Assembly (NCBI GenBank): GCA_004369045.1
Contig: ML213505.1
Location: forward strand, 1,030,591 to 1,094,590
Origin: Heliocybe sulcata
Taxonomy: Eukaryota > Basidiomycota > Agaricomycetes > Gloeophyllales > Gloeophyllaceae
DNA length: 64,000 nucleotides
Direction of reading: 5' to 3'
In this document: piece by piece, positions 17,501 to 38,859 of the stretch
How positions within the stretch are numbered: the first letter of the stretch is position 1
Layout of the letters: every line of letters begins with the position of its first letter
Notes under the pieces: model-generated
What the model was told of the DNA's origin: nothing
The model's input: only the letters and a program-made list of their open reading frames with translations
Database searches by the model: none
Made by a program: the position numbers and the translations under genes

Positions 17501-17583
17501 CCCGCCGACGCACATCCACTGTTGCCTCCGCTGCCAGCACGCAGTCACCTTCTAAGCTTGCTGGCAAGAATATAGCGGTATGA
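14533..17583 (+). CDS. RCO1: Rco1-like double PHD finger protein (Rpd3S-type histone deacetylase subunit)
   Basis: In yeast, Rco1 is the PHD subunit of the Rpd3S deacetylase complex, which acts on transcribed chromatin. The start at 14533 gives MASGMQKPVYDRDGVPV, followed by a bipartite basic motif GPRRKRARVDK. PHD1 lies at about 15395-15550 (HCSACRSLGALLYCDGC, then FHFWCLNPPMEP and WFCPSC). PHD2 lies at about 15945-16180 (VLCFSCGSS, SCDYCDLHWHLDCLDPP, WMCPNH). After PHD2 comes the conserved segment INGRRYRVPEKVVVLDFWNK. The C-terminal third is disordered, rich in S, P, T and basic residues (ARPRRSGRVPQPRKRSPVPS). An in-frame TGA at 17581 closes the reading used here. A further 3' exon through a non-canonical intron cannot be excluded, because the sequence after 17715 reads ARKPPIPDLRSGAFDKKAKL in one frame. 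The protein is about 850 residues. Confidence 0.85.
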
Positions 17584-17811
17584 TATACACGATCGTTCAT
17601 GGTGATATTTATATGTTGTTGGTGTATACGTCGGAATGTGGCCTCCCATGCGTCGCGCTACGTAGTCTATTGCCAGACCATGGCTTGTGTATAGAATTGC
17701 TCGGTGCGCATCAGCACGGAAACCACCGATCCCTGATCTCAGATCGGGCGCATTCGACAAGAAGGCCAAACTTCCCGCAGCTCGCACACCATCTCCTGCA
17801 AGTCAGAATGG

Positions 17812-17884
17812 CTATTATTACACTAGTGCTGACTCGTCCTATCAGCAGAATTATTACAGTGCCGACTCGTTCTATCAGCAAATG
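17812..17884 (+). repeat. Tandem 36/33-bp duplication upstream of methyltransferase copy A
   Basis: Two adjacent units begin ATTATTACA and end with CTATCAGCA(A/G)A; the first is 36 nt and the second 33 nt. Translated in the methyltransferase frame they give YYTSADSSYQQN and YYSADSFYQQM. Copy B has one unit only (YYYSADLSYQQM), so the duplication happened in the left arm. Confidence 0.85.
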
Positions 17885-18980
17885 TTCGTGCAATCGCGCC
17901 ATTGCACATTGTCGCTACTTAGACTTCCGGCGAGAAATCATATCTCTGCGTCGTTCTCGACCACTGCTGTTGCGATGTCGTCGGTTTTGAAGCAGGTCCA
18001 TGACATGGCCAAGCAGGGCTTTGGCACAGGAACGAACGAGCTTTATGATCGGTTAGCTTCCAGCAGTATACACACGTACTGGAGAAATAACTCATGACAA
18101 CAGCGCACGACCTTCATATCAGTCCGAAGCTCTTGCATACATCCGCCAGGAAGTCCAGGCCTCTTCCGTTAACATAGTCGAGTGCGTTGCACCTGACTTG
18201 CATAATGTGTCAATTATCGCTGAGCTCATGCCCCTCGCAGAATCGGCGCCGGCACAGGCATAGCCACCCGCGCCCTCCTCGCCCACCCCGACTGGTCCCA
18301 GTCCGTCGCCCGCCTGCGCGCCGTGGAGCCCAGCGAGGGCATGCGCGACGTCTTCTCCAAGACCGTCAAAGACGACCGCGTCTCCATCGCCGACGGCACC
18401 TTTGATACCACCGGTGTGGAAGACGGGTGGGCGGACCTGGTGCTGGTTGCACAAGCGTTCCACTGGTGCCCGGACTTTAACGTCGCGGCTGCTGAGTTTG
18501 CGCGTATCCTGAAGCCGACGGGCATCGTTGCGCTCATTTGGAACCTCGAGGACAGGTCCGTATGACCTGGTCATTATCCTCTAACAATGAATAGTACCCA
18601 ACTCACGTATATATATCAGGGACGCCGCTGGCTGGGTTGCCCAACTCCGCGACCGCGTCGAGTCGCACGAGTCAGGCGCACCCCAATTCCGCCTCATGCT
18701 CTGGCGCCAGACCTTCGATACGCCCAACTACCAATCTCTCTTCCAGCCGCATATCGAGAAGATCTGGGAGCGCTCTCTCCCCGGCACGCTCGAGATCGTC
18801 GTCGACAGGGCGTGCAGCAAGAGCTACACCGCTGTGCTACCTGAGGACGAGAAAAAGAAGGTTGTGGAGGATGTGACGCAGATTGTCAAGACGGGAGACG
18901 GTATGACTTGGCAGGATAAGGAGAAGGGGATCTTTAACTATCCGCACAAGACGTACGTGGTGATTTGGAAGAAGAAGTAA
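17882..18980 (+). CDS. SAM-dependent methyltransferase, copy A
   Basis: This is a class I SAM methyltransferase (type 11 fold) of the kind found in yeast Crg1 and trans-aconitate methyltransferase Tmt1; the acceptor is unknown. The first ATG at 17882 gives a leader MFVQSRHCTLSLLRLPARNH without acidic residues, possibly mitochondrial. A second in-frame ATG at 17975 (MSSVLKQVHDMAKQGFG) gives the usual length of about 280 residues. Motif I is IGAGTGIATR, split from NIVE by an intron whose phase is exact (GA|A). Later segments are LRAVEPSEGMRD, DLVLVAQAFHWC, ILKPTGIVALIWN and the C-terminal KTYVVIWKKK. All three introns have GT-AG borders. The copy looks intact and differs from copy B by only a few residues, so both may be functional. 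It lies 299 bp downstream of the Rco1-like stop. Confidence 0.88.
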
Positions 18981-19201
18981 AGGTTCCACTGTATCTATCG
19001 CCCCAAACCTGAATAAATCGTATATCACTCGTCACCTACAGAGGACTCTGGTTTTCAGTCATTAAGAACAGCCCTTCACAAATAAGCCACACCAATATCC
19101 TAAGGCGACAACGCAATCCTAAAGCATATCAAAGCGCACACTCGTACAACACACATTGTACACGACTGAAATTTGAAAGAGCCCGTAAACCCGAAGCAGA
19201 C

Positions 19202-19219
19202 GCCCCTAATCCTCCTCCC
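19202..19219 (-). pseudogene. Scar of the DUF4211 gene 3' end
   Basis: Eighteen bases (gcccctaatcctcctccc) equal the reverse complement of 37345-37362, which carries the last codons and the TAG of the DUF4211 gene. From 19223 the sequence continues with the reverse complement of 35401-35417, just upstream of the DUF4211 ATG. The body of the gene is therefore absent from this arm, leaving only the two borders. Confidence 0.85.
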
Positions 19220-19244
19220 GGCTCGAGTCAGTGACTACAGACAC

Positions 19245-19719
19245 TAGTGATGGGTGCGACAAGAGAGGGTCACAGTTATGCACTTGATGGTAGAGAGTAG
19301 AGAGCGTGGGAAGCGCGCGCTCTTAATGAGACGCGTCCTTAACGCGTCGGTGGCGTACCCAGCGATGGGATTGACCCGAGTCAAACCCCGAGTCAGGGGT
19401 TTGTCGCGATCTGACCTCATTGACTCATTGACATTGACTAGTGACCGGTCAGAGTCAGCACGTGATCTGACCATGAGTATTGATACCACCTTCAAAACTC
19501 TTCTTCGTGCTGTAATCTATTACCGGCAACATAGTTAATAGACATAGGCAATTGATACGGTAAAATATAGTCTCATAAAAAGCGATACCAGGTCGCCGGC
19601 GGACATTCTAGCGCATACGCGCCACAAGCCACGTGAGTCTTCAAAGTCACGCGTTGACCCCTTGACCACGGGTCTGACCCCGACAAACCCTTTTGACCCC
19701 TGGGCGTACCTGCCATCGG
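19245..19719. mobile_element. Short MITE-like repeat (copy A), interrupted by a second element
   Basis: The left terminus TAGTGATGGGTGCGAC and the right terminus (reverse strand, CCGATGGCAGGTACGCC) form imperfect terminal inverted repeats. Without the insertion the element is about 130 bp and matches 35275-35395 in the other arm. It has no coding capacity. Because both arms carry it, it was there before the duplication. Confidence 0.55.
19360..19702. mobile_element. hAT-like non-autonomous DNA element, 343 bp
   Basis: The element starts CAGCGATGGGATTGACCC and ends TTTTGACCCCTG, so both ends begin with CAG on their own strand. It is flanked by exact 8-bp direct repeats GGCGTACC at 19352-19359 and 19703-19710. 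The right arm of the duplication (near 35284-35291 on the reverse strand, GGCGCACC) has the empty site. The termini are rich in TTGACCC/GGGTCAA subterminal motifs and share GGGTTTGTCG in inverted orientation. The 8-bp target duplication, short imperfect ends and lack of an open frame fit a hAT MITE. Confidence 0.8.
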
Positions 19720-19842
19720 ATCCGATTGCATTCAATCCTTTGCTGCTCTAGCGGTTCACGGTATTGATGCAAAGTTGCGACTAGCTTTACTCTTGAGTCT
19801 CGGGCTACAAGGTCGACTGAGAGGTAATCTACTGGAGGCAGG

Positions 19843-22828
19843 ATGGCTAGTGCGAGCCCGTCTATCGAAGCCTTGGTTAATGAGTGGTTGCGGCTCGACA
19901 AGGCATGTCCATGCAGTGTGCGGGACAGCTTCGAGTGCTTGACGCTAACTCGGTATACGCGCGCTCCTCTGGGTCATCTAGAATGAAGTCAGCAGGAAAG
20001 AAATACAAGTCCTTTGGGAGAAAAATCAGACGGAGGAACTGGAGCGTCGACTCAGGTCCGGCATAAGCCCATACGTGCGATCCTGGCCTGACTTTACTCT
20101 ACCAGAAAGCGGATTGAATTCGGGACAGCAGGTTGTTGCCACTAGCTCAAATCTGATTATTACATATTTTTATATCTGTAGGGTTGAGAGGGAGAATGGA
20201 AGCCGGATTCTCCAGGATGAATGACCTTACCATCATACAAGCCTCGCAGGTTGGCGTCACGTAGCCGTGAATCAAAGCACAAGTTGACATTTCGTACGTT
20301 TTCTACAGGGCCTATGTGCTTATGTCCTCGCAAACGTATCTGCGGCGTCCGATCGTGGCATAGTCATTGGGCATGACCATCGGCACAATTCTGAGAAGTG
20401 GGCAATGATCACTGCTGCCGTATTCATGGCACAAAACATGAAAGTGCATCTGCTTGCTGGTCAAGTACACACTCCTATGTGTGTTGCTTTGTCCCGCAGA
20501 AAGATCCATCGTACTCAATAGAGGTCTATAGGGTACCCTTTAGTCTGAAAAGATTGCGAGCGGCTTGCGGAGTCATGATAACAGGTACGTCGTACCGATC
20601 ATTGTAAATGTGTCTTTGCTGTAAATTTAATTGCATGCATCATAGCCAGCCACAACCAAAAGGTCTGTGTCTGAAGGACGCTATGACATATGTTTGGCTG
20701 ATCTTGCACGGCACCGGATAGGACGACAACGGATACAAAGCAAGCATCCATTGATTGAATTGATACGGTTCTTTCTTAGCTGATGCCTTACAGGTCTACT
20801 GGGAGAACGGAGTCCAGGTGGGTTTATCAATCTATCATGCATTTAAGACAATGGAATCACCTAACATCGTGCTGCAGATCATAGAACCCCATGACAAAGG
20901 AATCGCGAGAACCATAGAAGCCAATTTGGAGCCCGGGTCATATGATATATCTGCGATCTCGACATCCTCTCTCTGTACCGATGTCACCCAGAAGATGCGT
21001 GAAGACTACCTGCAGTATGTCAAGGCATTGTCCTGCCAGGAGTGAGTATGCTATCAAGGACTCGGACGAACAGTACTGATGAGATGCTGGGGAGCAGCAG
21101 TGAGAGTCAAAAAGCGGAGATTCGGGTCGTTAATACCTCCATGCACGGTGTGAGCCATGCAATACTGACGAAGGTGTTCGAGTCCCTTGGATTCCCGGCG
21201 TACATACCTGTCAAAGAGCAGGAGGCGCCGAACCCTGACTTTCCCACTGTGAATTTTCCAAACCCTGAAGAGAAAGGTATTTGATATTTCTGCGTCCCAG
21301 CCGCAATGCAGAGTTTAGCGAATCTGTACTTGTCAGGTGCATTGGTGGGTAGTGATGCTCTTACGAAACTCACTCAAGGCAAGCTTAAAGGGTTCAGGAC
21401 CTGGCCATGAAACTCGGTGACGAGGTTGGTGTAAGCTACGTTCTCGCTCAAGACCCGGACGCAGATCGCTTTGCTGCGGCGGAAAAACAGTAAGAATCGA
21501 ATATACTCGCCTCACGATGAGATAGACACTTACAAATTCCTCTGGGTCAGACGGGACGGAAAGTGGACCCCTTTTACAGGAGATCAATTAGGTACACTCT
21601 TTGCAGCGGCAGTTCTTGAGCAATACAAGAGCTCCGGCAAACCGCTCAGTAGGCATTCCCATTTCCTTACCCTCTCTTGCTCTGAAGGTGTATTTTGGCT
21701 AGGTAAATTGGCTATGGTTGCGTCCACCGTCAGTTCCAAAATGATTGCTGCGATGGCGGCTAGTGAAGGTTTCCGATTTGTGGACTGCCTTACGGGTAAG
21801 ACAACACCGTACGATCCTGTGTACTCGTAAGCCGCCCACTGACGTCTCGCCCCAGGCTTCAAATATATTGGCAACACCGCCTTAACGTTGGTGTCCGATG
21901 GGTACGAAGTCCCGTTCGGCTACGAGGAAGCCATTGGGTTTATGTTCGGCGATGAAGTCAGGGATAAGGATGGCGTGGCAGCGACCGTATGTCTGATGAT
22001 ATAGTCTGGAAAGTCGGTTCCTGCTGACATCTCGTAGATAGTCTTTATGGACCTTATCAACTCACTACACGCGCAAGGCAAGACAGCCTCCTCATACCTG
22101 CAAGAGTTGTATCAGCGGTAAGGAAGACTATTCCTTATCTGCTTTCTTCTAACCGTGAACCGTAGGTACGGATATTTCCAAGTGCGCCTAACACATACCT
22201 TCACTGGAATGAGTCATACTGATCATGCCTTTATTGAAGACTAGCAACAGCTATTTCATCTGTACCGAAGCTCCCACAATCAACAAGATTTTCGCTCGCT
22301 TGAGGAACTTCGGTGGCAGGGTAAGCACTGAGCGCACAGCTGACTGGGATACGTATTCTCAATTTAGCACAGAATACCACTGGCAACCCGGACTACCCGA
22401 AAGAGATCGCTGGCCTCTCCATCATCCAGATCCGGGACCTGACTGTCGGCTACGACAGTTCGAATCCTCCTACCTATAAGCCAACATTGCCTCTCTCATC
22501 TGGGCATATGATTCAATTTAAAGCGGAGTCTCCAGCAAAGGATGAGGAGATCTTCTTAACACTGCGGTATGTCGTCTCTCCGTCATCTCGTACACTCTCA
22601 AGCAACTCACGACCTGGGGCTGTTTGAAGTACCAGCGGCACGGAGCCGAAGGTAGGTTTATATCTTACTACTTCCTCGAAATGCACTCAGGTCGCGTCAT
22701 AGATTAAATATTACCTTGAGGGCAGAGGGCACGATGCATCTAAAGTCAGTGGCCTCCTTGCGCGAGTAGTGGCCGAACTAGGCGACAGCTGGCTGCAAGC
22801 CGATTCGAATGGCTTGGGCCGTCCGTAG
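19843..22828 (+). CDS. PRM15: Phosphoglucomutase/phosphopentomutase (human PGM2, yeast Prm15 type)
   Basis: This enzyme interconverts hexose- or pentose-1- and -6/5-phosphates. The start at 19843 gives [20 protein letters not shown]. The next exon ([20 protein letters not shown]) joins only if the intron has a GC donor at 19903. Further exons give [20 protein letters not shown] and the catalytic loop MITASHNQK. DDNGYK and VYWENGVQ follow, again joined across a GC-AG intron (donor GCAAGC at about 20740). Then come the metal loop [19 protein letters not shown], the substrate motif [12 protein letters not shown], and the phosphate-binding RTSGTEPKIKYYLEG near the end. The family normally has TASHNP; here Pro is Gln. 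The gene has well over ten short introns. It runs convergent to MCMBP with 110 bp between stops, and its 5' flank consists largely of duplicated and transposon sequence. Confidence 0.88.
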
Positions 22829-22938
22829 CGGCGCTACACGCAGGCTAGGCGACAGGGTCAGGTGTAATGAAGATGCGCAACAGATATGATACAAGAATTT
22901 CCTATGCTATATCGGCAATCAGGAAAATACAGGTTTCC

Positions 22939-24961
22939 TCACGACTTCAGGCGGTCATAGAGCGCACTACTTCTGTGCCAGGTCTCTGCGTCCAGTTCTT
23001 CTAAGTCCAAAGACTGCGCCATTAGTCTGTCCAAACGAAGCTGAGTCGGACATGCTTCACAGCGAAGTAACTCATGAAACTCACTTTGCAATCTTCATTC
23101 TGAGGATGAGGTCCTCGGCCGTGAGAGACTGGTCTTGTCGCCTCGATGCTACGAAGTCACTCTGGATAAGCTGAAGACGGAAATTCAGTCATGCCGCAAG
23201 TTTCTGGCATGCCGCTGGTTCGCCTCTTACCTCCGACATCTGCTCTCCTACTCGAACAGTGAGGTTCTTCACATGGTGTAAGTACTGCCTGAATGTCGCC
23301 AGCATTGGGCTTTGCACAATGTCGCTGCCTGAACGGTAATAATTTGGTGTGGACTGTGGCTGGACCGGCACGATAACGTCCGTCTGCGGGCCAAGAATTC
23401 AGCTACCACGAACAGTCCACAGGGTATGTGGTGACAGACCTTGAAGAAAGCACTCTTACTGCCTTCCGTCATGACTATGAAGTTCATATCGGTGTTGAAT
23501 GAGAACTCGCTGAATGGGAAAACGTAGGGAATCGTCTGGGACGTTATCGCATTTTGCGCAGCCACGACATTCGCCACACCTTACAATGGGTCTTGATCAG
23601 GAGGCGACATAGAATCCAGGCGCATAAAGTACCTTTCTCGTGGAGCTTTCCCTCTTGCAGACCCACTTCAGATATGATGACAGTAGTCCCAGCTGGAACT
23701 TGCAGATATCCAGAATGCAAGTCTTCCTCTTTGCTTTCTGGAACGTAGCGCTCTTTGTTTAAACTGTCGAGGGTAGCTGGTAGCTTTATGACTTGCGGAA
23801 GAAGGAGGGAGAGGACAGTGCAGAGAGCGGGGCTGGCGGAAAGGGCAGGAGGAGGCGGCAACTTCGATAAAGTGAGAGATGGTGGCAGTAAAGGGGTTTG
23901 TCTGACTTGACTTTGACCCCATTGTTAACTCTGAGGACGAGTATAGGGCGGCGAATTTGACTTACACTTGGGCCATGCACACAAGCAGAACCCATTCCGC
24001 GGCATTCGTGTCTCCGGCCAGAGCTTCATCTGCTACCCATGATATCAGCTGGTGCCGAATATCCGAAGCGTTGTCTAGTGAAGGGGAGTCCCTGAACGGC
24101 ACTGAGCGGTCCACTGGTTTCGAAAACAAGGTGTGCAGTGTAGGGACAGAAACCGGCTCGTCATGTTCCCCGTATAATCTGGATTAATTTTGTCAGCAGG
24201 ACTTCGGTGCCGTGGAGCAGAAACTTACACGTCCGCGTGGAGGACACCTACAAACTCCATTAAATCTGTTGGTTTGGCATCACGCCCTGCTGTATCGTAT
24301 ATCTGCGACGTTTTGTTATCACTGAAGACGCCACACTCAAAGCTCTTGCGTACCTTCACCTGAGCGCCTACATGGGGCAAACCAGGGATAGGAAACTTAT
24401 GAGGACGAGGGGGTCGATGGACGACTTCTGGGGCTGGGACTATGTTGGAAAAACGGAACACATATACGTTATGCAGACTCACATTCACCGCTTGCGTCCG
24501 GTACATCAGATACCCAGTCCGACTCGCCTGGAATGCTGGTTGCCCAGATCACCGTGCACTCCCTGAGATTGGCGTAGTCGGATCGCCCCAGGATGTCCTC
24601 ATCGGACCCACTTTCAAGGTTCCACCCGCCGGGCGCTCCAGTGCACAAGCGTGACATGTACATCTCGGGCGATTGTGAGGTATCTTGCACCATCGCGCGG
24701 AACCTGACTAGCGCACCATCCGCATGGGCTTCGGGAGGTGACTTCGGGCTCAAAGCAGGTATCTGCAGATAGTCATTAGTAGCTAGGCTTATTACTATTC
24801 TGTGCACTCACCGTACGAAATGCATCAAACGTTCTGAAGAGGTTGGAGAAGTGCTCGTGTACGACAGCAGGAAAGTCTTCCGATTCCCCGTGCGCATTGT
24901 AAACATCAAGGAGAGCCTTACGAGGATCACGTAGAGCGTCCGAAGCGGAAGAGGCCTCCAT
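22939..24961 (-). CDS. MCMBP: MCM complex-binding protein
   Basis: MCMBP/ETG1 binds MCM proteins and helps unload or assemble the replicative helicase. The start at 24961 (MEASSASDALRDPRKALLDV) was chosen; an in-frame ATG seven codons upstream at 24982 is possible. The N-terminal conserved segment reads LVRFRAMVQDTSQSPEMYMS and CTVIWATSIPGESDWV. The middle of the gene is AAA-like in this family. The C-terminal part reads YVFPFSEFSFNTDMNFIVMT and SKSAFFK, then FRQYLHHVKNLTV, SLTAEDLILRMKIAK, and finally DAETWHRSSALYDRLKS. About ten short introns are present and the product is roughly 530 residues, normal for fungi. It is divergent from uL15m, with about 167 bp between start codons. Confidence 0.85.
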
Positions 24962-25128
24962 GGTCCAGAGTTCTCGTCCCATTCAAACGGCGTATAGTGT
25001 GGTTGTGAAGAGCCACAGACGCGACGCGACGCGGTAAATTAGACGCGGTCGTGAGAAGGACAGGTCCATCCTGGACCGCCAGCTTCACTTGCTCCGCTGA
25101 CCTGAACGTACATGTGCAGTAGCCACAA

Positions 25129-26078
25129 ATGTTTCCTTCGCTCGTCCGCTCAGCGGCGGGCAAGGTCCATCTCTTGAACCTCTCGCCTGCAGAAGGGTCC
25201 CGACACACTGTGCGATTTTGTCCCATACGTGCGAGAAACATAGCTGAAATATCTCCAGCAAAAACGTCTCGGTCGAGGACGAAGGTCCAACCACGGTAAG
25301 ACGTCCGGGAGAGGTCAGAAAGGTCAGAAGTCGCGCTCTGGAAATAGCAATCCTAGACCGCAGTTCGAGGGTGGTCAAACCACTATCGCGAAGTTATTCC
25401 CGAAGAAGGGCTTCACGAACCAGTGAGTTCCTCGACCATTTGTCGATGCTGGCACTAGAACCGCTGTTTCAGGCATGAAAAGGTCTACGCACCTGTCAAC
25501 CTCGACCGCATTCAACACTGGATTGATACGGGACGATTAGCATCAAGTCCTACGCAGCCTATCACTGCTCGGGAGCTACTTCTCAGCGGCTGTGTACACA
25601 ACGTCCACGATGGCATAAAGCTTCTGGGAGACGTGCGTCGGCTTTGTACCTTCCTTTAATATACCAGTCTTCATGCTTTTACTCCATAGGGCGCTGAGCA
25701 TCTGAAGACTCCCATCCATATCACTCCTTCTCGGGCGTCGAAGAGCGCCATTCGAGCAGTGGAGAAGTTGGGTGGATCGGTGTTCTGCAGATACTACAAC
25801 CCCTTGGCTCTCCGTGATTGCGTGAAGGGCCGGACTGACCGCCTCGATGCTGCACCTACTCGGCGAACAGATATAGGTGCGTTGTTCTGCCCCGTCCATA
25901 CGTCTCTGCAGGACTAAGTTCGTTCTCGTTCACAGAATGGTACACAAATTGGAAGAATAGAGGTTATCTCTCGGAGAATGCTATTGCTAACATGCCGCTC
26001 GTCACTGAGAGGTGGAAGGCGTTGTCTGGACAGCTACAGGCCTTTAGAGGGCAGGAGTTCGACAAGCCTAGGAAGTAG
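25129..26078 (+). CDS. MRPL10: Mitochondrial ribosomal protein uL15m
   Basis: This is a component of the large mitoribosomal subunit, homologous to bacterial L15. The start at 25129 gives [20 protein letters not shown], a basic leader. A 35-nt intron (shorter than usual) separates it from [20 protein letters not shown]. The basic L15 signature [20 protein letters not shown] and [17 protein letters not shown] follow. The later exon reads [15 protein letters not shown] and [18 protein letters not shown], and the next [20 protein letters not shown], the usual L15 C-terminal beta segment. A mitochondria-specific extension ends [12 protein letters not shown]. The length is about 260 residues. It runs convergent to PRP38 with only 40 bp between stop codons. 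Confidence 0.92.
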
Positions 26079-26118
26079 CGTATCCAGTATCAAAGCCCAT
26101 TTTATGATGATGCTATAC

Positions 26119-27189
26119 CTATGTATCCCCGTTTGAAACGGCAGTGTCCATTCGATCAGGAGAGATGCTACGACTCCGCGAACGATAGGGAGAGTCCGAC
26201 CGTGAATTGGAACGAGAGCGTGAAATATAACCATTCCTGGATCCTGCAACTGAAGGTGACCGTGATCTGGATGGACTCCGGGACACGTAGCGATCTCCTG
26301 CGTCTGAAGGCGTCCCACTCCTCGACCTGCTTCCGCCTCTGCTCGACGGACTTCGACTCGCTCTTTCGCTTGGGCCCCTACTCTGACTTCTGCTTCTGCT
26401 GCGGCTCCGGCTACGCTCCTCTTTGCCCTCCATCGCATCCAGCAGCCGACTCTTGCGAGGCCCTATCTCCCCGGTTTCTTCTAGCACAGAGCGTTTCGCT
26501 AGCCGGGGTAAGATGATGTCGCATACTCGCTCTTCCCTCAGGAGACTATCGACAAATTCGTCCATGTATGTCAATTGGTAGCCAGCTTATGCTTGGTGTC
26601 AGTTGGCAAGTGAAGAGTAGGCCATAGACATACCCATGTTTCGATAGCGTAGTTTCCTGTAGTCTTTCAGCAGCGGTTCCAGGATCTCATACACCTCTGC
26701 TGATCGAAACGTCATGCGGACGTACAGCGCTGCTAGTGCGCGGAGATACCTGTGACGGTATTCAGCCAATGGTTCGTGCAATGTGCGAGGTGCTCACTTG
26801 AATTCGTCCGCCTGCAAATACTCGATCAGAATCTCCTTCTCCGGCTGAATCTGCAACAGCTTCAGCAGCAGACACAGGTACTGCGTAGGCTTTTGGTTCC
26901 CATATACGCCCCCGATGAACTTCAACTCGATGGCCTTGTCGATTAAGGTCTCCGCTGGGACGGACCATCAGCCTTTCCCTACCGAGAGCACAACGCGGAA
27001 GACCCACCTGTCAGAGCGAAACAATCCTCCTTCCAGTACGCTGATTCATAGATACGATTCCTTATGACAGTTTCAACTAGATACTGGAGCAATTGAGAGA
27101 CGAAGTCGATACACGCCGAAGTATTGACGCCTCACCTGAGGATTCTGGCCGTGAATAGCTTGCGCACCGCGCACAGTTGTATTGGCCAT
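26119..27189 (-). CDS. PRP38: Pre-mRNA splicing factor PRP38 with RS tail
   Basis: PRP38 is a tri-snRNP associated protein needed for spliceosome activation. The start at 27189 reads MANTTVRGAQAIHGQNPQ. The conserved core continues with VETVIRNRIYESAYWKEDCF, FIGGVYGNQKPTQYLCLLLK, YLRALAALYVRMTF and DYRKLRYRNM. An MDEFVDSLLREERVCDIILP segment ends the domain near residue 180. The C-terminal part from about 26440 down to 26119 is an arginine/serine repeat tail (RSRSRSRSRSQSRGPSERAS and similar), typical of metazoan and basidiomycete homologues and absent in budding yeast. Introns are short and canonical. The length is about 285 residues. Confidence 0.93.
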
Positions 27190-27456
27190 GGCAGCAGTAC
27201 TAGTCTTGTAAGCGAGGAGGTACTAGACGAAAGTGCCGGTAGGCGCGTCAAGTATGCGAAGGTTTGCTCAGAGGAGTCCGAGTCGTAGTTGATCGAGGTC
27301 AAGATGGATCGGCCTCGCTTCTGCTTCAAGATCGGCGCAAGTAACTCTCGCAGACTGACATAGTATATGAAGTATATTGCACAGCGCTACAGCAACGGCA
27401 ACCGTCCTTGAACTAGGAAGAATAGGTATGTACAGAGAATGAATGAAATCCATCAT

Positions 27457-28364
27457 CTAAGCAGAAGCCGGACTGTAGGTACTCATCAACTTCGCTTTAA
27501 ATTCTGCATCGAAGGCGAGGTCAATAACTGTCCGTGATTAGAGCTGGCAAGTACGCACCCGATGGCGACTTCCATAACCCAGCGGCCTCTGGGTTCAAAG
27601 GAGAGGCGTTGTTCGGCTCTGGAGCATCAAAGTCAATGGAAACAGCATGACCCGCCGATTCGGGATAACTCACCTCCCAAAAGAGATTGCAGGGAAAGTA
27701 AAATTGTCTGAACGCTGTACACGGCAGACCACTTGTCCTGAGGTAGAACATGATTAAGACGCAAGCTTACATAGGGCAGTGAACAGCTTGCATACCTGTA
27801 AGATATCTAGGCAGATGGCACCCGAGTTGAGGTCCACATTAGGGTGGTAACACTGCGAGTCGAATTTGATGGTGGGTGCGACATAGGGGTAGTTTGGAGG
27901 AAAGTTTATTGATATCTTGAAGGTGAGGCCAGAGTATACCTGCGAAAGATTCGTGACATCCTGACAAAAGGCCGCACACGACGTACAGTGCCAGTTGGTC
28001 CCTCAATCGTTCCGACCCATTCAAAAAGATTCGCGTCACTCTTAGGGAAGGCAGACTAAAGAGAGTTGGGAACTGAACGCCGCTTTCGGAGCGAAGAGGT
28101 ACATACGATGCCTGGTGAGGAAGACATCTAGACGCGACGCGACGTGAGTAGGAACTATCTGAAGACATCCTGGAATAACTCACCATTAGTTGCATTAGTT
28201 CGCTGCTCAGCCTATTACGACGCGTCAGTAAGGTTTGCGCGTGCGTAGACGCGCCAAAAGCCTTACCGCTTCGTGACGGAACCCGAGGCATCGCTAGTAG
28301 AGCCTGGCACGCCGACTTTCTGAGAGCTACGGGGAGGAGCGAGGGAAGTGGTGATTTGTTCCAT
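27457..28364 (-). CDS. UBC11: Ubiquitin-conjugating enzyme E2, UBE2C/Ubc11 type
   Basis: This E2 works with the anaphase-promoting complex in mitotic cyclin destruction. The start at 28364 gives [20 protein letters not shown], a flexible N-terminal extension. Exons then read LSSELMQLM and MSSSPGI, followed by [34 protein letters not shown] and [20 protein letters not shown], with the active-site Cys in [29 protein letters not shown] and [16 protein letters not shown] come next. The end reads [18 protein letters not shown] and the catalytic Cys are both intact. At least seven introns cut the small gene, some exons being under 30 nt. The product is about 180 residues. It is divergent from EDE1 (328 bp). 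Confidence 0.9.
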
Positions 28365-28692
28365 GGTAGAAATACAGTGGTAGATGCTACGCGAAGAGAC
28401 AGATGCGGATACAGAGGTAGCGGCAGAGAGCAAGATGCGCTGTAAACGTGACCGACTGTCTCGACTTCCAGACGCGCGCCAGAACAGCCGTCACGTGTGG
28501 TCTCAGGAACGCCGGGTCGAGGCCGAGCGTGTCTTCCGGAAGACTCCGGGACTCCGTGTGAGTGCCGTCGGCCCTTGGCCGGGGTGACGTTACCGGTGCG
28601 TCTGGCACCGACGCACTCTCACTCGTTACCGACGCTGTCGCACTCGCTCGCCAGCTTGCTGCTCGAATTCTTTCTTGTTTGCTAGGGCGGCA
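28365..28692. promoter_or_regulatory. Divergent promoter region UBC11/EDE1
   Basis: This 328-bp stretch separates two divergent start codons and must contain both promoters. Open frames here are short and compositionally random. No clear TATA element or repeat was seen. Confidence 0.5.
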
Positions 28693-31600
28693 ATGTCTGG
28701 CACATTCACTCCGTCTCCCGCAGAGCTTGCGCTCGTACAAAAGATATTCGCCCATCCCGATGCGCAGAAGCTTGGTGCATTAACTGGCGAGATTGCGGTC
28801 CAAATATTCAGTGGATCAAAGCTTCCACCCGCAGTCTTGGGGGAAGTGTGGTCTCTGGCCGATAGGGAGAACAACGGATGGCTCTCAAAGAAAGGCGCTG
28901 CTATGGCTGTCAGGCTCATGGGCTGGGCGCAGAAGGGGGAACCGCTCAGAGAGGAACTCATCTACAAGCGTGCGTACCGCGTCGTGCCCGTAGTACTGTC
29001 TCGTCTGACACGTCCTGCTACAGCTGGACCCCTTCCCACCATTGAGGGCGTGTCAGACCTCGTGCCTCAGTCCACGGGCGGCTCAGCAAAGCCGCCTAGC
29101 ATCTCGAACCTCGGGCTACCTCCGCTCACGTCCCAGGACAAGACCAAGTTCACAAAGTTGTTCATGGGGGCGGGTCCAGTGAACGGCCTTCTGAACGGTG
29201 TGCATCATTAGTTCGTCAATCACTGAACATATCTCACTCTGCTATATAGGCGATAAGGCGCGAGATATTCTTGTAAAGTCCAAATTACCCGTTGACAAGT
29301 TATCACAAATCTGGTATGTGACATTACGAGTGGGCGGTCGTTTCTGCTGACCCGGGACCCCGCAGGTCGCTTGCGGATACCCAGAACCGTGGAGCCCTGG
29401 ATTCAACGGATTTCACCATTGCTATGTATCTAGTTCAAGCCTGTATGTCAGGACAACTCTCCTTCGTTCCAACAACTCTTCCTCCGGGACTTTACGAACA
29501 AGCTGGCGGCCGACCACTTGATGGCGTCGCGTCTCACAGCACCGGCGGGAGCGGGTCCTTTAGTCCCAGCCTTACAGGTTCATTCCCGGGCCGTAACCCT
29601 GCAGTATCAACTCCTTTGAACAGTCAAGCGACTGGCATTCGACCGCAGATGACTGGGTCTAGCCTTAGGCCAGGAGGTGGTCCCGCTCTTCCTTCGCGTC
29701 CCTCGGCAGCCGCCCTTGGGGGTAGTGCCTTCGGGACTCCGGTCCAATCACATAACACTGGTCAGGCTTTTCAGCCTCCTTGGGACGTGACTGCATCCGA
29801 GAAGATTACGTCCGACGGTTTCTTCGACACACTGGACACGGAACGCAAAGGATACATCGAGGGTGATGTTGCGGTGCCATTCATGCTGCAGTCGCAACTG
29901 CCCGAAGACGTACTGGCACAAATTTGGTAGGTCCCGTATATGGGTTAACCTACCTTTAGCATAGCAGTTGGAACTGATAACGTACCGCTCTAGGGACCTT
30001 GCCGATATGAATAATGATGGCCGCCTAACTCGAGATGGCTTCGCTGTAGCCATGCATTTGATCCAAGCAAAGCTGGCAGGAAAGGACATTCCTGCGTCTC
30101 TTCCGCTTAGTTTGATCCCGCCGTCTATGCGGGGCAAAGTCAACGCTGCACCCTTCGCTGTTCCCCCGAGCTCTCCGCCTGCCGTGGAACCGCTTCGGGA
30201 TTTGCTATGGGACGACACTCCCGCTTCTGCAACCAGTGCAACGCCGACACTGCAGCCGCAGCGGACCGGGGCCTTGTCCCCGCAGCATACAGCAGCTGCT
30301 ACCCCATCTTTTAGCTCTCCTGCGCCTGCACCTTCGGCTTTTGCGTCGCCTGCTCCCACCGGATCAGCATATGGTACACCAGCGTCTGCACCGTTCTCTC
30401 AGGCCGATCCATTTGGCAACTCTGGTAAGTCATGCTCAGACGCAAGATAGCCTGGATTGACTTGTTCTCCCGCCAGCTGCGTTCAACAATAGGGATCTGC
30501 TAGGTGATGACGACGAGCCACCGACGAAGTCGCCTCCTCTGGCTGATAAATCTGCTGAAATTGGTAACACTCAGAATCAGTTGAATTCCACCAACCGTTC
30601 TCTGGAGACTGCCAAGACGGAGCGCGCCTCTATGGAGCGGACGTTGAATGACCAGGCTGCGCAGCTTTCTGCACTGCAGACACAGCTATCATCTGCTAAG
30701 GCTGCTTACGAGACGGAGACTAGTCTGCTGTCGACCTTGCGGGACAGATATGCTACGCAAACGGCACAAATTCAGAAGGCCAGAGAGGAGCTTATCCGTG
30801 CTGAGAGTGATCTGAGTGCTCTGCGCGTGGAGAAAACCGAGATCGAGGGCAACCTGTTACGTGAGAAGGAAGAGGTCCGGGAGCTTCAACGGAAGATGCA
30901 CGAAGTCGGCGTCGAAGCTGAGACCATTAAGGTGTTACTCGAAAAGCTGAGGAAGGAAGCCAAGCAGCAGAAGGGTCTACTCGCTATTGCAAAGAAGCAG
31001 CTGGTCACCAGGGAGCACGAGAAAGAGAAGGTTGAGAAGGAGGCCGAGGACGCAAGACAGGAAGTGGCTGAAGCTGTAAAGGAGAGGCAGGAAATCGAAG
31101 CGCAGATTGAGGCACCTGCCTCCAATGGTACAGCATTGCCCGAACCCGCTGCTGCGCCCTCTGCTGTTTCCGACGAGGCCTTTGCGGCTGCGATTTCACA
31201 ACCATTGCCTATGTCCCCGCCAGAGGCAGGAAGCCCTACCACTAGCCCCAAGAGCAACAATCCGTTTGACCGTCTGATGTTTGCCAGCGGATCTCGCCCT
31301 CAGTCGCCTTTCGCTAGCACATCCGGATCTCGCCCGCAGTCACCTTTCGGCAACACCTCTGTCCCTGCTCCTACTATTGCTCCCGTTAACGCCGCGGCCG
31401 ATGATCCTTTCGGTTTTGAATCGGAGGAGCCCGGGAAGGCATCTGCTGAGATGGAAGGCGCGAGCACCGACATCGCTGCGGCTGCTAGCCAGTTCCCGGA
31501 TATTCAACCTTACCCCGCGGTGTCGACCTCGCCGATTAATGGTCCCTCTGGAGAACTCTTCTCGCCCTCTGAGACCGAAAATTGGAGTACCCCGCCGCTG

Positions 31601-32999
31601 ACTGCCACGGCTGACCAAGCACCTCAAGTCCTAAACTCTGCCGGGGAGACGCCGGCTAGCGATCACCCAGATGAAACGGATATCAACTCTTCACTTAAGG
31701 AGATTGAGGCGGAGGAGTCCGATAGCAGCGATGATGAGGAGCCGCTTAGCAAGAGGCGTGAATCGCTGAAGGGAAAGGAGCCCGAGGGTGATTCCATTGC
31801 AACTGGTTCCGGTTCGGCTGGACCCAGTTTCGATGATGCCTTTGGGCAGACTGATAGTCAGCCAGATTCCGCGGTTGCCCCTACTTCAGGCTCTGCTACC
31901 GCGACGCCTTCGTCGCCGCTCAAGGATGCGTTTGGCATGGCTTCCATGCCAGCTTTTACTTCTCCGCCAGCGGTGGCCGCAACCACACCAGCTGCGCCAA
32001 CGGGTCTGAGTGATTTCGACGAAGCACTGGGAAAGCTCCCGAGCAAGACTAATGGCTCGGCCGCACCTTTCAGCTTCGATGCGTCGTTTGACGATAACTT
32101 CGATTTCGGGTCAGCCTCGGCAGATGCAGCAAGTAAGCCTGCGGCTGAGCCCACAAACGGCTCCGCAGCACATAATGGTTTCGATGCGGTGTTCATGTCA
32201 CAAGCTGCTTCTCCTGCTCCTGGCCCTGTCGTGACTCCTCAGGCCAATACGGCTCCTCAGGGTGCTGCGTCCTTCTCCTTCGAAGATGCATTTGGCACGT
32301 CGTCGACGGCTGCGCAGCCTGGCGCTCAGGCTGCGGCTAGCAATGGTATGCCTCATATTTCCTTCGATGATGCCTTTGGCGGAGCCCAGAGCAAAGATGC
32401 ACTCTCTTTTGATAAAGCTTTCGGTGCGGAATCATCCCGAGGATCCATGTCTTCGCAGACGCAGCAAGGAAAGACAGCTTTCCCCTCATCCTCTTCGCCT
32501 ACTTCTCCTCAAGGAGCAACATCTCCCCCGCATTCCTTCGAAAGGAACACCGCCTCGCCGCCCCCGCGGTCTATATCACCACCCATTAGACACACGTCGC
32601 CAGGACCTCGGCCGTCTACGGCTGGTTCCAGCAAGGGTGACAAACATAAAGATAAAGATGCGCCGACGAGACATTCCCGCCTCAGCGTGAGTATCACACA
32701 AGTATCGTACTGTGCTTCCTTGTTCTGATCCTGCTGAGTTCCAGATCCGATTGCCATTCGGAAAGAAGAAATCGAAGCAAGACGCTGCCCCGCCGATGCC
32801 TTCCCACCTATCTCAAGCGCCCACTCTGGCTCCGCTTGAAGAACCTGAGACAGCACAGACTCCTGCTGTGGATGATGACGTTGAAGGCGTCAAACAGCTG
32901 TGCGGCATGGGATTCAGTCGTACTCAGGCGGTGGCGGCGCTGGAACAGCATGGATATGATGTCCAGAAAGCGCTGAACAGTCTATTAGGTTCACCATGA
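28693..32999 (+). CDS. EDE1: EH-domain endocytic scaffold, Ede1/Eps15-like
   Basis: Ede1 is an early endocytic site protein that binds NPF-containing adaptors and ubiquitin. The start at 28693 gives [22 protein letters not shown]1 includes [22 protein letters not shown]2 includes [20 protein letters not shown], and EH3 includes [20 protein letters not shown] with [13 protein letters not shown]-like helices. A coiled coil covers about 30590-31100 ([20 protein letters not shown] onward). A long disordered region follows with phosphosite-like SRPQSP repeats and eight related AFG/DAF motifs. The C-terminal UBA domain reads [20 protein letters not shown] and ends ALNSLLGSP. The large exon 30581-32728 carries most of the tail. 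The protein is about 1,300 residues, as expected. Confidence 0.93.
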
Positions 33000-33533
33000 G
33001 TGAAGTTACCTGCATGCTTTCTTTGTATTCTTATGCTTTGCCCACGTGCGGACGTTGATTTCTTTGATAGTCACCGTACTTCTTCATCCTACTTTATCCT
33101 AGTTTTAGATACCTTCTGTGTTTTCTAATACGAATGTACCCAATGAGCCGCCTATAACGATTTTTTCTGGGATGCTCGTCTCCCAGTTGTGCGTGATGAG
33201 GGCGCCAGGTTCCTTTACATATACCATCATGGGTATATGCGGACATCAGCTTTCCTTTGTGACGCATTTAGGCTCTGCGGAACTTGCACAGATGTGATGG
33301 TCCCTCTCAGGTGTATTGACACCGCTGCTATTGTATCTGTCTGATCCGTCACATTGTACTTGCAGTACTGCTTGAGCACCGCCGGACAATGAGGGGAAAC
33401 ATCGCACACGGACTACCTATGCCATTGTTCGGAACTTACGTATCCGGGCTTTGCGGCTGGATTGATGCTTTCGCGCTCTCGCAGAGGTATACTTTGATAG
33501 GGAATTCGGACTGCTCTTCTCGTCTCCCTGTTT
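33000..33533. other. Intergenic region EDE1/PDE1
   Basis: This 534-bp gap holds the EDE1 3' UTR and the PDE1 promoter. Nothing gene-like, repeated or RNA-like was recognised on either strand. Confidence 0.55.
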
Positions 33534-34990
33534 ATGCCGCCGACATTAGAGTGGCTGACTGACCCGGTCCGCTCGATATTTAATCTCGCTTGGCGAATCG
33601 CACCTCAATTTGAAGCCCCTGGCACTCTGGATCGGCTTATGTACGCCTTCGACATGGTGGTACTAGGCTCTGGAGGAGGCCCAGATGAGACTAATCTGTC
33701 TGGGTTAGTATTTTTATTGCGTGGGTTATCTTCAAAATTAAAATCTCATACCCCAGGTATTTGCTGAAGCGGTACGACGCGTCTTGGAACGCAGGGACCA
33801 TTGGCTTAGAGGCAGGTATGTATTTTACTTCTTTCCACTGAGACCGACTATATTTTCTCTGTGTACAGGTTCCGGTATGGGCGCGTTGGCGCGGATTCTT
33901 GACAAGTGCCCGGAAACCTTTGAGCATCCTTCTCAGAGTTCCAGCGTGTCGGAACACGGAATTGAGAGACGTCAGTTCTCAGCTTGCGATATTTACGCCT
34001 TCATAAAGTAGGTAGACCATGCTAAGGTCTCTCAAATGATCTCCCTGATATGGTTGTAGATGTTTCTTGATCACTCACGGACATCTTGACCATATCTCAA
34101 GTCTGGTGCTATCCGCAGGTTCGGTGGGTGGACCGAGAAAGCGGATTTACGGGTCTCTGCAGACGCTCAGGGACATAGAAGGCATATTTAATGGACGACT
34201 GTGGCCCAATTTGGCGTCCTGGGATGAGTCGGAAGACTCTAGCAGACTACTGTATCAAAGGCATGCATCCTTAATTGCATAAAGCCGAATATACTGACCT
34301 TTCCACAGTTTGGCACATGAAGAAGGATATCAGCCTATCGCGGAGAATGTCTCCGTTCTCATGATGCCACTTAGTCATGGTAGTAGCGGGGACACCGGGG
34401 AGGTCTACGACTCCACTGCCTATTTCATTCGGCACGACGTCTGCAACCAGGAGTTCCTATTCTTCGGCGATGTGGAACCAGACTCTCTCTCCCGCGAGCC
34501 GCGCAATAAGCGCATTTGGGAAAAAGCTGCGGGCAAAGTGGGAAAGAGTCTGCATTCTATATTCATCGAGTGCTCTTGGCCATCATCCAGGAGTGACGAG
34601 ACGTTATACGGGCATCTCAATCCACAACATCTCCTGGCAGAGCTGAGGGTCCTTGCTGCCGAGGTCGTCAAGCACCGATTAGAGACTTCTAGCCTCCAGA
34701 ACTTGGATTGCCAAAGGCCAGCCAAGAGATCGCGGACGGACGGTAGCCTCCCAGGGAGGTCCGATTCCTTGCACCATGCCCTCAGGGGCATGCGTATTTA
34801 CCTTACACACTGCAAGGCTCGTTTGGATCGCTTCAGCCCCAAGCCTATTCATATGGAGATTGCGGATGAAGTGAGAGCTTTGGTCAACATGGAAGATCTG
34901 GGCGCTGAGGTGATAGCTGTCGAGCAAGGCATGGTAATAAGTGAGTGCATTGATACCATACCTCTGCTACCTCGCGCTGACCAAGGCTAG
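33534..34990 (+). CDS. PDE1: Class II cyclic-nucleotide phosphodiesterase
   Basis: This is a low-affinity cAMP phosphodiesterase of the metallo-beta-lactamase-like class II family, which limits cAMP signalling. The start at 33534 reads MPPTLEWLTDPVRS; a downstream ATG at 33640-33655 near the conserved FDMVVLGSGGGPDETNLSG is the alternative. The next exons give YLLKRYDASWNAGTIGLEAG, and then the metal-binding motif ITHGHLDHISSLVLSAG. MPLSHGSSG and EFLFFGDVEPDSLS follow, and the final part reads IFIECSWPSSRSDETLYGHL and IYLTHCKARLD. All metal-ligand motifs of the family are seen. A hydrophilic insert (KRSRTDGSLPGRSDS) separates the last two. Four or so introns; about 400 residues. Confidence 0.9.
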
Positions 34991-35437
34991 GAATATGAAC
35001 GTTCCGGTTCTGGCTTTCCGTGCAATCTTGGCTTCTGGCTCAACTAAGATGTATCTCTAGAATATACGACGCACCACTGTAGCACTAGCTTTTCCTGTCT
35101 TCCCATCTATATATATATATTTCAAGTTATATCAAGCCTTCCTTCCATCTGCAGTTGTCTCTATCAATGCCGCACTGTTCACTCACGACGGATTGACTGG
35201 ACATGGACCTGTCCATGGCCGCGGCGGAGAGCGGCAAAGGACCGCCTGCTATTGAATGCAATCGGCTCCGAGCTTCTGATGGGAGGTGCGCCACCGACGC
35301 GTTAAGGACGCGTCTCATTAAGAGCGCGTGCTTCCCACGCTCTCTACTCTCTAACATCGAGTGCATAACTGTGACTCTTATTGCACCCATCACTAGTATC
35401 TGTAGTCGCTGACTCGAAGAGTAGACTAAGCGCAGAC
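34991..35437. other. PDE1/DUF4211 intergenic region with duplicated flank
   Basis: This 447-bp stretch contains an AT repeat (TATATATATATAT near 35109), then from about 35220 the DUF4211 5' flank shared with the left duplication arm, including the short MITE-like repeat that ends 42 bp before the DUF4211 start codon. Confidence 0.65.
35275..35395. mobile_element. Short MITE-like repeat (copy B), uninterrupted
   Basis: The ends CTGATGGGAGGTGCGCC and, on the reverse strand, TAGTGATGGGTGCAAT form imperfect inverted repeats enclosing about 120 bp without coding capacity. An internal ACGCGTTAAGGACGCGT gives extra dyad symmetry. It matches the repeat at 19245-19719 minus the 343-bp insertion. No clear target-site duplication is visible, so the assignment to a DNA transposon family is tentative. 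Confidence 0.5.
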
Positions 35438-37361
35438 ATGCCTCGTCGGAAACACGCCAATCCTGGACCTGCGACTCCTTCCAAACCCGCAAAACTGAAG
35501 CAGCTGACTCTCTTTGGGTCCACGCTCTCCAGCTCTCCTGGACCATCGCCCAGTCCAAGTGCGCCCAGAAGAAAAAGTGGAAAACTCTCTTCTCCCGTGC
35601 ACGCTTCTCCTGTAAAGAATGCGAAGGGACAGAGGAAGGGACCGGGACTCGAGTATGAGAGCGATGGGAGCAGCTCCAGCAGTGCCGTTGGAGGAATACG
35701 CTTTGAGCCCGAGATAATCGAAGTGGATGCAGGAGCTGGATCAGAAGAGGACTCTCCACGCCGTAGGCCTGCGAAGAAACGGAGGGTGCAGCATGTGGAT
35801 GTGACGGATGAAAGTGACTCGAGCCCGGGTCCTGCTGCCTCCAAGCCGAACAAGACCTCGACGAAAGGGAAGGAGAAGGAAATTGTAGATGCCTCCAAAA
35901 CGGAGAAGCCGAAAGCAAGAAAATATGGGCGGCTTCGGAAAGTTACTTCCGACGAGGAGAGTGAAGGAAAGAGAGCCGAGGACGATGATGAAGCGGAGAA
36001 TCAGCCAAAACGCCGCAGACTCGTCAAAGGTCATAGACCATCAACACCATCGGATGCAGAAGACGATGATTCTCTCTTGGAAGAGGTCGATACTAAGAGT
36101 GAGCAATCTCTTTCCTCTCTAATGAAGTCGTAAAACTAAGCATGCGCAGCGATAATCGAGGACCGATTTAGGTCCAGAAGCAAGAAGTCCGCGTTTCAGC
36201 GCAATCTGGAGAAAATGAAGCGTGAGCATTGGTCCGGACATGCGTGTTGGTTCTCCTGGCTAAACTCAGTATACAGGAAAGAAACGAGGTCAAGCAGTCG
36301 AGAGCTCGGAAGAAGAGGAACTCGAGGAAGAAGATGGCATAGTCATCCCCTTCAAAGAAGCAAGACCAGACAACAGCCACGGGGACGATGACGACTCAGA
36401 GTCCGAGAACACGGAGCAGGACGAGGTGGACGACAGCTTCATAGTGGAAGACGATAGTCAGGTCGTCACGGCGGAACTACCCTCGGAATTCAGCATGAAC
36501 ACGTTCCAAGATCTAGCACACCACTTCAAGATCATTTGCCAGCTGTTCGTGCATGTAGCGGTGCAACCGCCTGAGAAGCGGCACGATTATATGGAGACGG
36601 CTCTCAAGGGTGCGCGTCCGTCCCGATCCTATGTCATCAGCATCGTGATGCTGACTTCCTCGTTATTCAGACGAGGAATACTTCCGTGTGCCGCTGCATA
36701 TAGCCCGACGCAAGTTGACCGGGATGCGCGACTCGCTGGTCGCCTCGTCCGTCTGGCGCCCGGATTTCAAGGGCCCTCTCGAGAAGTATCCCAACCTCGA
36801 GGTAGTAGCCCTGGAGGTGACTATCCCTCATTGTGACGCTTGTCATCTCGGCAGTCGTGTATCTACGTTGTTGGGCAGGGTAAGCGGGGAGCCGTATGAC
36901 AAGCTGGGGTTCGAGGTGCGTCCCACTTCCGATCTTTGTTTGGGGAAAGTATATAACATATATGGGCGTTGGGCAAGGCCACTTTCGATTCCGACTCCGA
37001 CTCCGGAGAAAGTGATGACGACGAAGACCCCTCCTCGAAAGTCCACAGAGAATTTAACCTCGGCCGCTTCTGCGCCCGCCGCACCCGCGTCTTCCACGAG
37101 TTCAGCCACTGGGAGTACGCCACGTACCAAACGCTCCTGTGCGAGATCGACGAGCTGCGTGCCACCAACGGTAAGCGCGGCTTCATCCGCGTCGCGTTTG
37201 CGGGCGGGGTGCAGGCGCCGGAGGATCTGGACGATGCGGATGGGGTTATGGAATGGCTGGATCAGAGGGGGATTGTGGAGATGGAGTGGAGGAGGGTGAA
37301 GGATATGATGGCGAGGGCGAGGAATTTGGAGGTGGCGAGTAAGAGAGGGGAGGAGGATTAG
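35438..37361 (+). CDS. DUF4211 domain protein
   Basis: This is a fungal nuclear-type protein of unknown function carrying DUF4211. The start at 35438 gives MPRRKHANPGPATPSKPAKL, and the first 250 residues are basic, serine-rich and charged, with NLS-like runs (RRRPAKKRRV, QPKRRRLVKG). A second charged part reads ESSEEEELEEEDGIVI. DUF4211 follows: FQDLAHHFKIICQLFVHVAV, EEYFRVPLHIARRKLTGMRD, WRPDFKGPLEKYPNLEVV, then the Cys/His pair HCDACHLGSR and LLGRVSGEPYDKLGFE. The final exon reads FNLGRFCARRTRVFHEFSHW and YQTLLCEIDEL, ending ASKRGEED. Four introns are supported and the product is about 550 residues. The orthologous position in the left arm of the duplication has been deleted, so this is the only copy in the window. 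Confidence 0.88.
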
Positions 37362-37595
37362 GGGCCTTTTGCTTCGGGTTGATGGGCTGTTCTCGATTCA
37401 GTCGTGTACGATATCTGTGAGTCGTGTGTTGTACGAGTGTGCGCTCTGATATGCTTTAGAGTTGCCTTGTAGCCTTAGGATATTTGATGTGGCTTTTTCG
37501 TGAAGGACTGTTCTTAATGATTGAGAACAGGAGTCCTTATGTACGTCACGATATCCAATTTATTCAGGTTTGGGGCAATAGTTACAATAAAATCT

Positions 37596-38691
37596 TCACT
37601 TCTTCTTCCAAATCACCACGTACGTCTTGTATGGATAGTTAAAGATCCCCTTCTCCTTATCCTGCCAAGTCATACGGTCTCCCGTCTTGACAATCTGCGT
37701 CACATCCTCCACAACCTTCTTCTTCTCGTTCTCAGGGAGCACAGCGATGTAGCTCTTGCTGCACGCCCTGTCGACGACGATGTCGAGCGTACCGGGGAGG
37801 GAGCGCTCCCAGGTCTTCTCGATATGCGGCTGGAAGAGAGATTGGTAGTTGGGCGTATCGAAGGTCTGGCGCCAGAGCATGAGGCGGAATTGGGGTGTCC
37901 CTGACTCGTGCGACTCGACGCGGTCGCGGAGTTGGGCAACCCAGCCAGCGGCGTCCCTGATACGGAGCAAGGCTCAGTTCATTACTGAAGGAGAATGACT
38001 GGGACATACGGACCTGTCCTCGAGGTTCCAAATGAGCGCGACGATGCCCGTCGGCTTCAGGATGCGCGCGAACTCGGCAGCGGCAGCGTTATAGTCCGGG
38101 CACCAGTGGAACGCCTGTGCAACCAGCACCAGGTCCGCCCAGCCGTCTTCTACACCGGTGGTATCGAAGGTGCCGTCGGCGATGGAGACGCGGTCGTCCT
38201 TGACGGTCTTGGAGAAGACGTCGCGCATGCCTTCGCTGGGCTCCAGGGCGCGCAGGCGGGCGACGGACTGGGACCAGTCGGGGTGGGCGAGGAGGGCGCG
38301 GGTGGATATGCCTGTGCCGGCGCCGATTCTGCGAGGGACATGAGCTCGGCAATAATTGATATAGTATGCAAGAGAGGTAAAACGCACTCGACTATGTTAA
38401 CGGAGGAGGCCTGGACTTCCTGGCGGATATATGCAAGAGCTTCGGACTGGTATGAAGGTCGTGCGCTGTTGTCATGAGTTATTTCTCCAGTATGTGTATA
38501 CTGTTGAAAGCTAACCGATCATAAAGCTCATTCGTTCCTGTGCCAAAGCCCTGCTTGGCCAAATCATGAACCTTCTTCAAAACCGACGACATCGCAATAG
38601 TAGCGGTCGAGAACGAGGCAGAGGTATGATTCCTCGCCGGAAGTCTACAAGTCTTAAGCAGCAATGTGCAATGGCGCGATTGCAGCAACAT
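37596..38691 (-). CDS. SAM-dependent methyltransferase, copy B
   Basis: This is the near-identical inverted partner of the gene at 17882-18980, a class I SAM methyltransferase. The first conserved ATG at 38691 gives MLLQSRHCTLLLKTCRLPAR, an arginine-containing leader without acidic residues. The second, at 38592, gives MSSVLKKVHDLAKQGFGTGT. Motif I is IGAGTGISTR; later segments are LRALEPSEGMRD, LVLVAQAFHWCPDYN and ILKPTGIVALIWNLEDR, with an end at KTYVVIWKKK. Compared with copy A, most changes are conservative and all indels in the leader are multiples of three. The frame is also open further upstream to 38871, overlapping the antisense start of the kinase gene. It runs convergent to DUF4211 (234 bp) and divergent from the sphingoid base kinase (about 170 bp from the first conserved ATG). 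Confidence 0.88.
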
Positions 38692-38859
38692 CTGCTGATA
38701 GGATAAGTCGGCACTGTAATAATAGTCATTCTGAGGAGATGGTGTGCTGCAGCCCCCGGGCCGGGCGACAGTAGGGACTGTTCTATTCTTGGACCGCAGA
38801 AGTCGATCACAGATCGACCATGAAACGCTCAATACAGCCTCAATTAACGCGTTCAAGCC

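Follow-up and report, generated by a model that had tools for sequence, protein, structure and literature searches.

Probable inverted duplication of a methyltransferase/DUF4211 gene pair in Heliocybe sulcata, with loss of DUF4211 from one arm

Two closely similar methyltransferase genes lie in opposite orientation within 64,000 nucleotides of Heliocybe sulcata contig ML213505.1 (this whole stretch is the window, and all positions are counted within it), and only one of them is accompanied by a DUF4211 gene. How did this arrangement arise? A sequence-only reading had proposed that a methyltransferase/DUF4211 pair was duplicated in inverted orientation and that one DUF4211 copy was then removed, and it suggested a base-by-base alignment of the two arms and the synonymous divergence of the methyltransferases as checks. 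The arms are:

17778-19755, plus strand: left arm; significant homology spans 17850-19359, and the wider edges come from short matches
35220-38755, minus strand: right arm, inverted, with the DUF4211 gene

BLAST of the window against its own sequence, at word size 11 and an E threshold of 1e-5, yields two matches off the diagonal, both on the minus strand: 17850-19219 with 38723-37348 (89.6% identity over 1391 columns, E 0.0) and 19223-19359 with 35417-35285 (91.2%, E 1.7e-46). Overall, 17850-19359 and the minus strand at 38723-35285 are about 90% identical over two collinear blocks around a single 1,930-bp gap. The alignment is not confined to methyltransferase coding sequence but takes in introns and flanks, with the orientation opposite throughout, as the sequence-only reading had held. 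In the whole assembly (31.6 Mb, 51 contigs) both arm blocks are found again, together with two pieces on contig C17 that match an insert in the left arm.

The wider extent first proposed, 17778-19755 against the reverse strand of 35220-38755, stands for the part covered by BLAST, while its outer edges rely on short exact matches that fall below BLAST significance, one of 14 bp at the 5' edge (17784-17797 and 38747-38734) and one of 15 bp at the 3' edge (19722-19736 and 35265-35251). Alignment is weak at the 5' edge (14 of 47 sites differ, plus a 32-bp gap) and likewise past the insert (17/45 differ), so that the outermost limits 17778/38755 and 19755/35220 are plausible but weak. By eye, the left-arm 5' edge at 17800-17881 has a tandem duplication of about 33-36 bp relative to the right arm, for which Tandem Repeats Finder gives no report at score 40. 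By reading, the length differences at this edge are multiples of three and the frame is open into the methyltransferase.

The gene that both arms share is the methyltransferase:

17882-18980, plus strand: left methyltransferase gene, exons 17882-18051, 18104-18181, 18241-18555 and 18620-18980; 307 aa, Methyltransf_11
37596-38691, minus strand: right methyltransferase gene, exons 38691-38516, 38465-38388, 38328-38014 and 37956-37596; 309 aa, Methyltransf_11

Both copies have four exons and intact frames, and their three GT-AG introns are at matching positions; retroposition was rejected on this ground. The identity of about 95% given earlier holds approximately for the coding sequence (94.5%, with 51/924 sites different over the summed exons) and is slightly lower for the proteins, in which 286 of 307 aligned residues are identical (93%). 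Synonymous divergence between the copies is dS 0.141, with dN 0.033 overall (Nei-Gojobori, own script). The ratio is distributed unevenly, with dN/dS 0.15 over the 274 codons that follow an N-terminal leader and 0.93 over the first 33 aligned codons. With dN/dS at 0.15 once these first codons are set aside, purifying selection appears to have maintained both copies, in line with the earlier statement that they look intact. The high ratio at the N-terminus suggests that this stretch may be untranslated; a second in-frame ATG occurs at 17975 in the left gene and at 38592 in the right. Between the two ATGs there is no acidic residue, and lysine or arginine accounts for 3 of 31 residues in the left copy and 4 of 33 in the right, which makes a mitochondrial leader a possible but weak reading.

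Both proteins match the PF08241 profile above its cut-off of 21.2 bits (right 55.3, left 55.8) and share with class I SAM-dependent methyltransferases the glycine-rich VEIGAGTG, and we predict them to belong to this class, in the Methyltransf_11 family. For the right copy, 14 NCBIfam models are listed and none reaches its cut-off (the best, BioC, scores 43.7 against 184.95 bits), and the matches of this copy among solved structures are distant (best E 1.9e-5); neither the NCBIfam models nor these structures name a substrate. When the protein was searched against the whole genome, all eight exon matches came from the two arm genes (6/6 candidates scored), and no third copy was found in the assembly. 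Among prokaryotic contigs, 26 pattern matches yielded no confirmed relative (0 of 26).

The gene that the arms do not share, and what the left arm retains of it, are as follows:

35438-37361, plus strand: DUF4211 gene, 564 aa, five exons (hand-spliced), convergent with the right methyltransferase
35418-37347, plus strand: 1,930-bp stretch missing from the left arm
19206-19219, minus strand: left-arm relic, the 3'-terminal 14 bp of DUF4211 coding sequence, stop codon included

The DUF4211 domain (PF13926) is recognised with 126.9 bits against a cut-off of 27, and the protein has an N-terminal half of charged sequence with low complexity. A search of solved structures with the C-terminal 264 residues (E limit 0.1) gives no match and names no function. 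At 35438-35520 the gene encodes a start that reads MPRRKHANPG...KLKQLTLFG, which we take to be loosely like short PCNA-binding-like motifs. The family search of the genome returned two exon matches, both from the right-arm gene; no second DUF4211 gene was found in the assembly. The same genome searches thus found one DUF4211 locus against two methyltransferase loci, the gene count that had been put forward. The domain is also present in the vertebrate proteins PRR12 and QSER1, both of which carry DUF4211 according to a zebrafish PRR12 study (PMC11050278).

The missing stretch of 1,930 bp (35418-37347) agrees with the earlier estimate of about 1.93 kb and with the statement that it is nearly the DUF4211 coding sequence: subtracting the 14 terminal bp from the 1,924-bp genomic extent of that sequence (35438-37361) and adding 20 bp from upstream gives this length. 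The 18-bp scar of the DUF4211 3' end described at 19202-19219 needs a small correction, since 14 bp are coding and the remaining 4 bp are 3' flank. In order, the left arm has these last 14 coding bases with the stop codon, the trinucleotide GGC, and then 137 bp of the DUF4211 upstream region, without the 20 bp that adjoin the start codon. The three introns, the 3' flank, the final DUF4211 bases and the DUF4211 5' flank are accordingly all present in both arms, as had been noted.

Because the left arm retains DUF4211 sequence on both sides of the gap, we favour a reading in which DUF4211 belonged to the ancestral segment and was deleted from the left arm over one in which it was inserted into the right. 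The near-exact coincidence of the gap with a coding sequence would suit a post-duplication arrival of DUF4211 in the right arm, with the left arm as the older state. The gene has introns (by hand splicing), however, and is not a retrocopy, and the 14 coding bases, the stop codon and the upstream region with its pair of ACGCGT boxes in the left arm would all have to be there by chance; we rejected the insertion because of the relic on both sides of the gap and regard it as very improbable. We think equally little of an artefact in which the arms are alleles placed on one contig. In variable fungi, about 10% divergence between haplotypes is within range, and the arms would fit this. Allelic copies should nevertheless bring duplicated neighbours, and two of the four flanks, the 3,001-bp stretches to the right of each arm (38760-41760 and 19760-22760), are each found only once in the assembly, which disfavours this explanation and led us to reject it. 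The arms, which lie on one contig of 1.9 Mb, are further set apart by a gene deletion and an insert, and the search of these two flanks gave no sign of an assembly artefact.

An inverted duplication of the pair followed or accompanied by loss of DUF4211 from the left copy is therefore the history that we consider highly probable, whichever the timing of the loss and whichever the route of duplication. One such route, in which the block was first duplicated in tandem and one copy was then inverted along with the intervening genes, would likewise yield inverted arms with unrelated genes between them; it needs one extra event, the edges having been read for repeats by eye, and we hold it to be unlikely. 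The deletion junction carries a short filler:

19220-19222, no strand assigned: 3-bp filler GGC at the deletion junction, which with its flanks resembles DUF4211-internal sequence at 35829-35815

The left junction, CCCGGCTCGAGTCA, is one edit away from CCCGGGCTCGAGTCA at 35829-35815, inside the deleted stretch, and the last eight bases of the latter, TCGAGTCA, occur again at the distal break (35417-35410). When the deleted stretch was shuffled 2000 times with a first-order Markov model, a one-edit match to the junction arose in one shuffle, an exact copy of the 10-mer GCTCGAGTCA in 9 and one of the 8-mer TCGAGTCA in 127. Since the comparison was picked after the junction had been looked at, we treat the match as a lead rather than proof. 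Two microhomology deletions in succession would account for it, as would a single event that involved a templated switch; in the two-step version, a 405-bp deletion between the 8-bp repeats would have been combined with a larger deletion at CCC. Also possible is one deletion whose 3-bp filler is random. If the junction is templated, as it looks, and considering how clean the gap is, the deletion may have occurred at the birth of the copy, by template switching in replication that skipped DUF4211, in which case a second gene never existed. The genome searches show no additional DUF4211 remnant, with a second match for the upstream piece only, which is also what such an origin would leave. Two ordinary deletions explain the same junction, however, and the deletion is undated relative to the duplication. 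We see this variant of the favoured history as a possibility with considerably less than even chances.

The left arm has acquired sequence as well:

19360-19702, plus strand: hAT-like non-autonomous insert of 343 bp, CAGCG...CCCTG, with the 8-bp target-site duplication GGCGTACC

The target-site duplication is perfect, with GGCGTACC at 19352-19359 and again at 19703-19710, and the right arm lacks the insert at the corresponding point. Elements of the hAT type leave 8-bp target-site duplications and have ends of the form CAG...CTG. The insert resembles hAT-type miniature elements in both respects and differs from them in its short, interrupted terminal inverted match and in that its search gave just one other relative, a lower bound. 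Its assignment to this type is provisional because the terminal inverted repeats are poor. The relative, at C17:61108-61771, is longer and degenerate, with three pieces alike (81%, 91%, and 37 bp at 86%) and no clean duplication seen around it; both candidates were scored (2/2) and a third place was not found, such counts being lower bounds. Its restriction to the left arm makes it probable that the insert entered after the duplication; an ACGCGT site lies within it, at 19649.

The surroundings were characterised by Pfam scans of selected open stretches, with 5/8, 4/10, 7/10, 2/3 and 2/3 above cut-off. The gene content and the short GT-AG introns are those expected of a fungus. The neighbour on the left side of the left arm encodes two PHD fingers and is presumably Rco1-like. 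Between the arms are matches to a phosphoglucomutase, an MCM-binding protein, PRP38 and a ubiquitin-conjugating enzyme, as well as EH and UBA domains, which we count as a single gene, and a class II cAMP phosphodiesterase (PDE); in the stretches scanned, no mobile element besides the insert was seen between the arms. Beyond the right arm, a divergent gene with its ATG at 38860 has a diacylglycerol-kinase-type catalytic domain (PF00781, 57 bits) and probably encodes a lipid kinase. Further right, a minus-strand open stretch at 44216-45880 has a starch-synthase-type domain (PF08323), and we assume that it is probably part of a cell-wall alpha-glucan synthase.

The sequence beyond the junction raises the question of whether a promoter has outlived its gene in the left arm:

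19223-19359, minus strand: orphaned DUF4211 upstream region, with ACGCGT boxes at 19331 and 19342
35285-35417, plus strand: twin upstream region of the intact DUF4211 gene, with ACGCGT boxes at 35297 and 35308

ACGCGT is the core SBF/MBF motif, and one report describes its enrichment at G1/S and replication genes in the basidiomycete Cryptococcus too (PMC5137879). In a Ganoderma catalase promoter, two ACGCGT elements are reported as sites of the APSES factor Swi6B (PMC12285235). The clustered upstream boxes expected of an MBF/SBF-regulated promoter are present in both arms, 11 bp apart in each, and these are the only pairs within 20 bp among the 13 sites of the window; any such pair arose in 4 of 200 window shuffles. 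Together, the box pair and the PCNA-binding-like start of the protein hint at a replication-linked role for the DUF4211 gene.

The upstream twins differ at 8 of 133 sites, compared with 39/235 in the 3' flank (Fisher p 0.003) and 93/664 silent sites of the first block (p 0.010), and the orphaned element may still be functional. Divergence is patchy elsewhere too, and gene conversion or chance is for this reason a real alternative to constraint. Intron 1 (18052-18103) differs at 2/50 sites and intron 3 (18556-18619) at 17/57, and with 7/114 silent differences in exon 4, both this exon and intron 1 are as low as the upstream region. A permutation test of dispersion supports unevenness along the arms (p 0.013), with p 0.11 for the longest identical silent run. 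Gene conversion may have reset parts of the arms, and dS may therefore understate their age. The next gene past the left arm is the phosphoglucomutase (PGM_PMM_I match, ATG at 19843 by reading). A retained promoter could drive this gene, or antisense transcription into the left methyltransferase, under a G1/S control that its twin does not have; this is a speculative proposal, which we consider improbable.

Taken together, the favoured history would run as follows. A block of about 3.5 kb with a convergent methyltransferase and DUF4211 gene would have been copied in inverted orientation about 15.5 kb away on a gene-dense contig. The left copy would have lost DUF4211 through microhomology-mediated deletion, after or during copying; two deletion steps, or a templated switch, would be the probable course, and a second DUF4211 gene was perhaps redundant or unwelcome. 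Both methyltransferases would then have been retained under purifying selection, and a small hAT-like element would have entered the left arm. The order and polarity of these events are inferred. The would-be empty sites between the neighbouring genes (about 280 bp on the left and 240 bp on the right, by hand count, the PDE end being an estimate) give no indication of the relative age of the arms. An argument that the left arm is the original, from the frame of the PHD gene (17666-18094) running into the shared 5' edge, was dropped because the preceding exon hits an in-frame stop at 17581-17583 unless spliced.

Overall, this is ordinary duplicate-gene loss, unusually clean and with a well-preserved scar. 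Beyond the sequence-only reading, our analysis adds the junction that resembles internal DUF4211 sequence, the 343-bp insert and the surviving upstream region with its ACGCGT pairs; a promoter that may have outlived its gene is its mildly novel side. The locus is a compact natural example of linked duplicates that part ways, one gene staying double and the other back to, or still in, single copy, and both the deletion scar and the DUF4211 upstream region can still be read in the left arm. Should the orphaned promoter be active, the locus would show how a neighbour can take over a cell-cycle promoter when a gene is lost. Among the matches listed from the literature on inverted and segmental duplication, basidiomycetes are unmentioned. 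As in known inverted segmental duplications with differential loss of linked genes, the segment here is short, nearby and inverted, its introns and flanks were copied with it, and one of two linked genes is gone from one copy; here the loss comprises almost exactly one coding sequence, and its 3' relic and upstream region remain recognisable.
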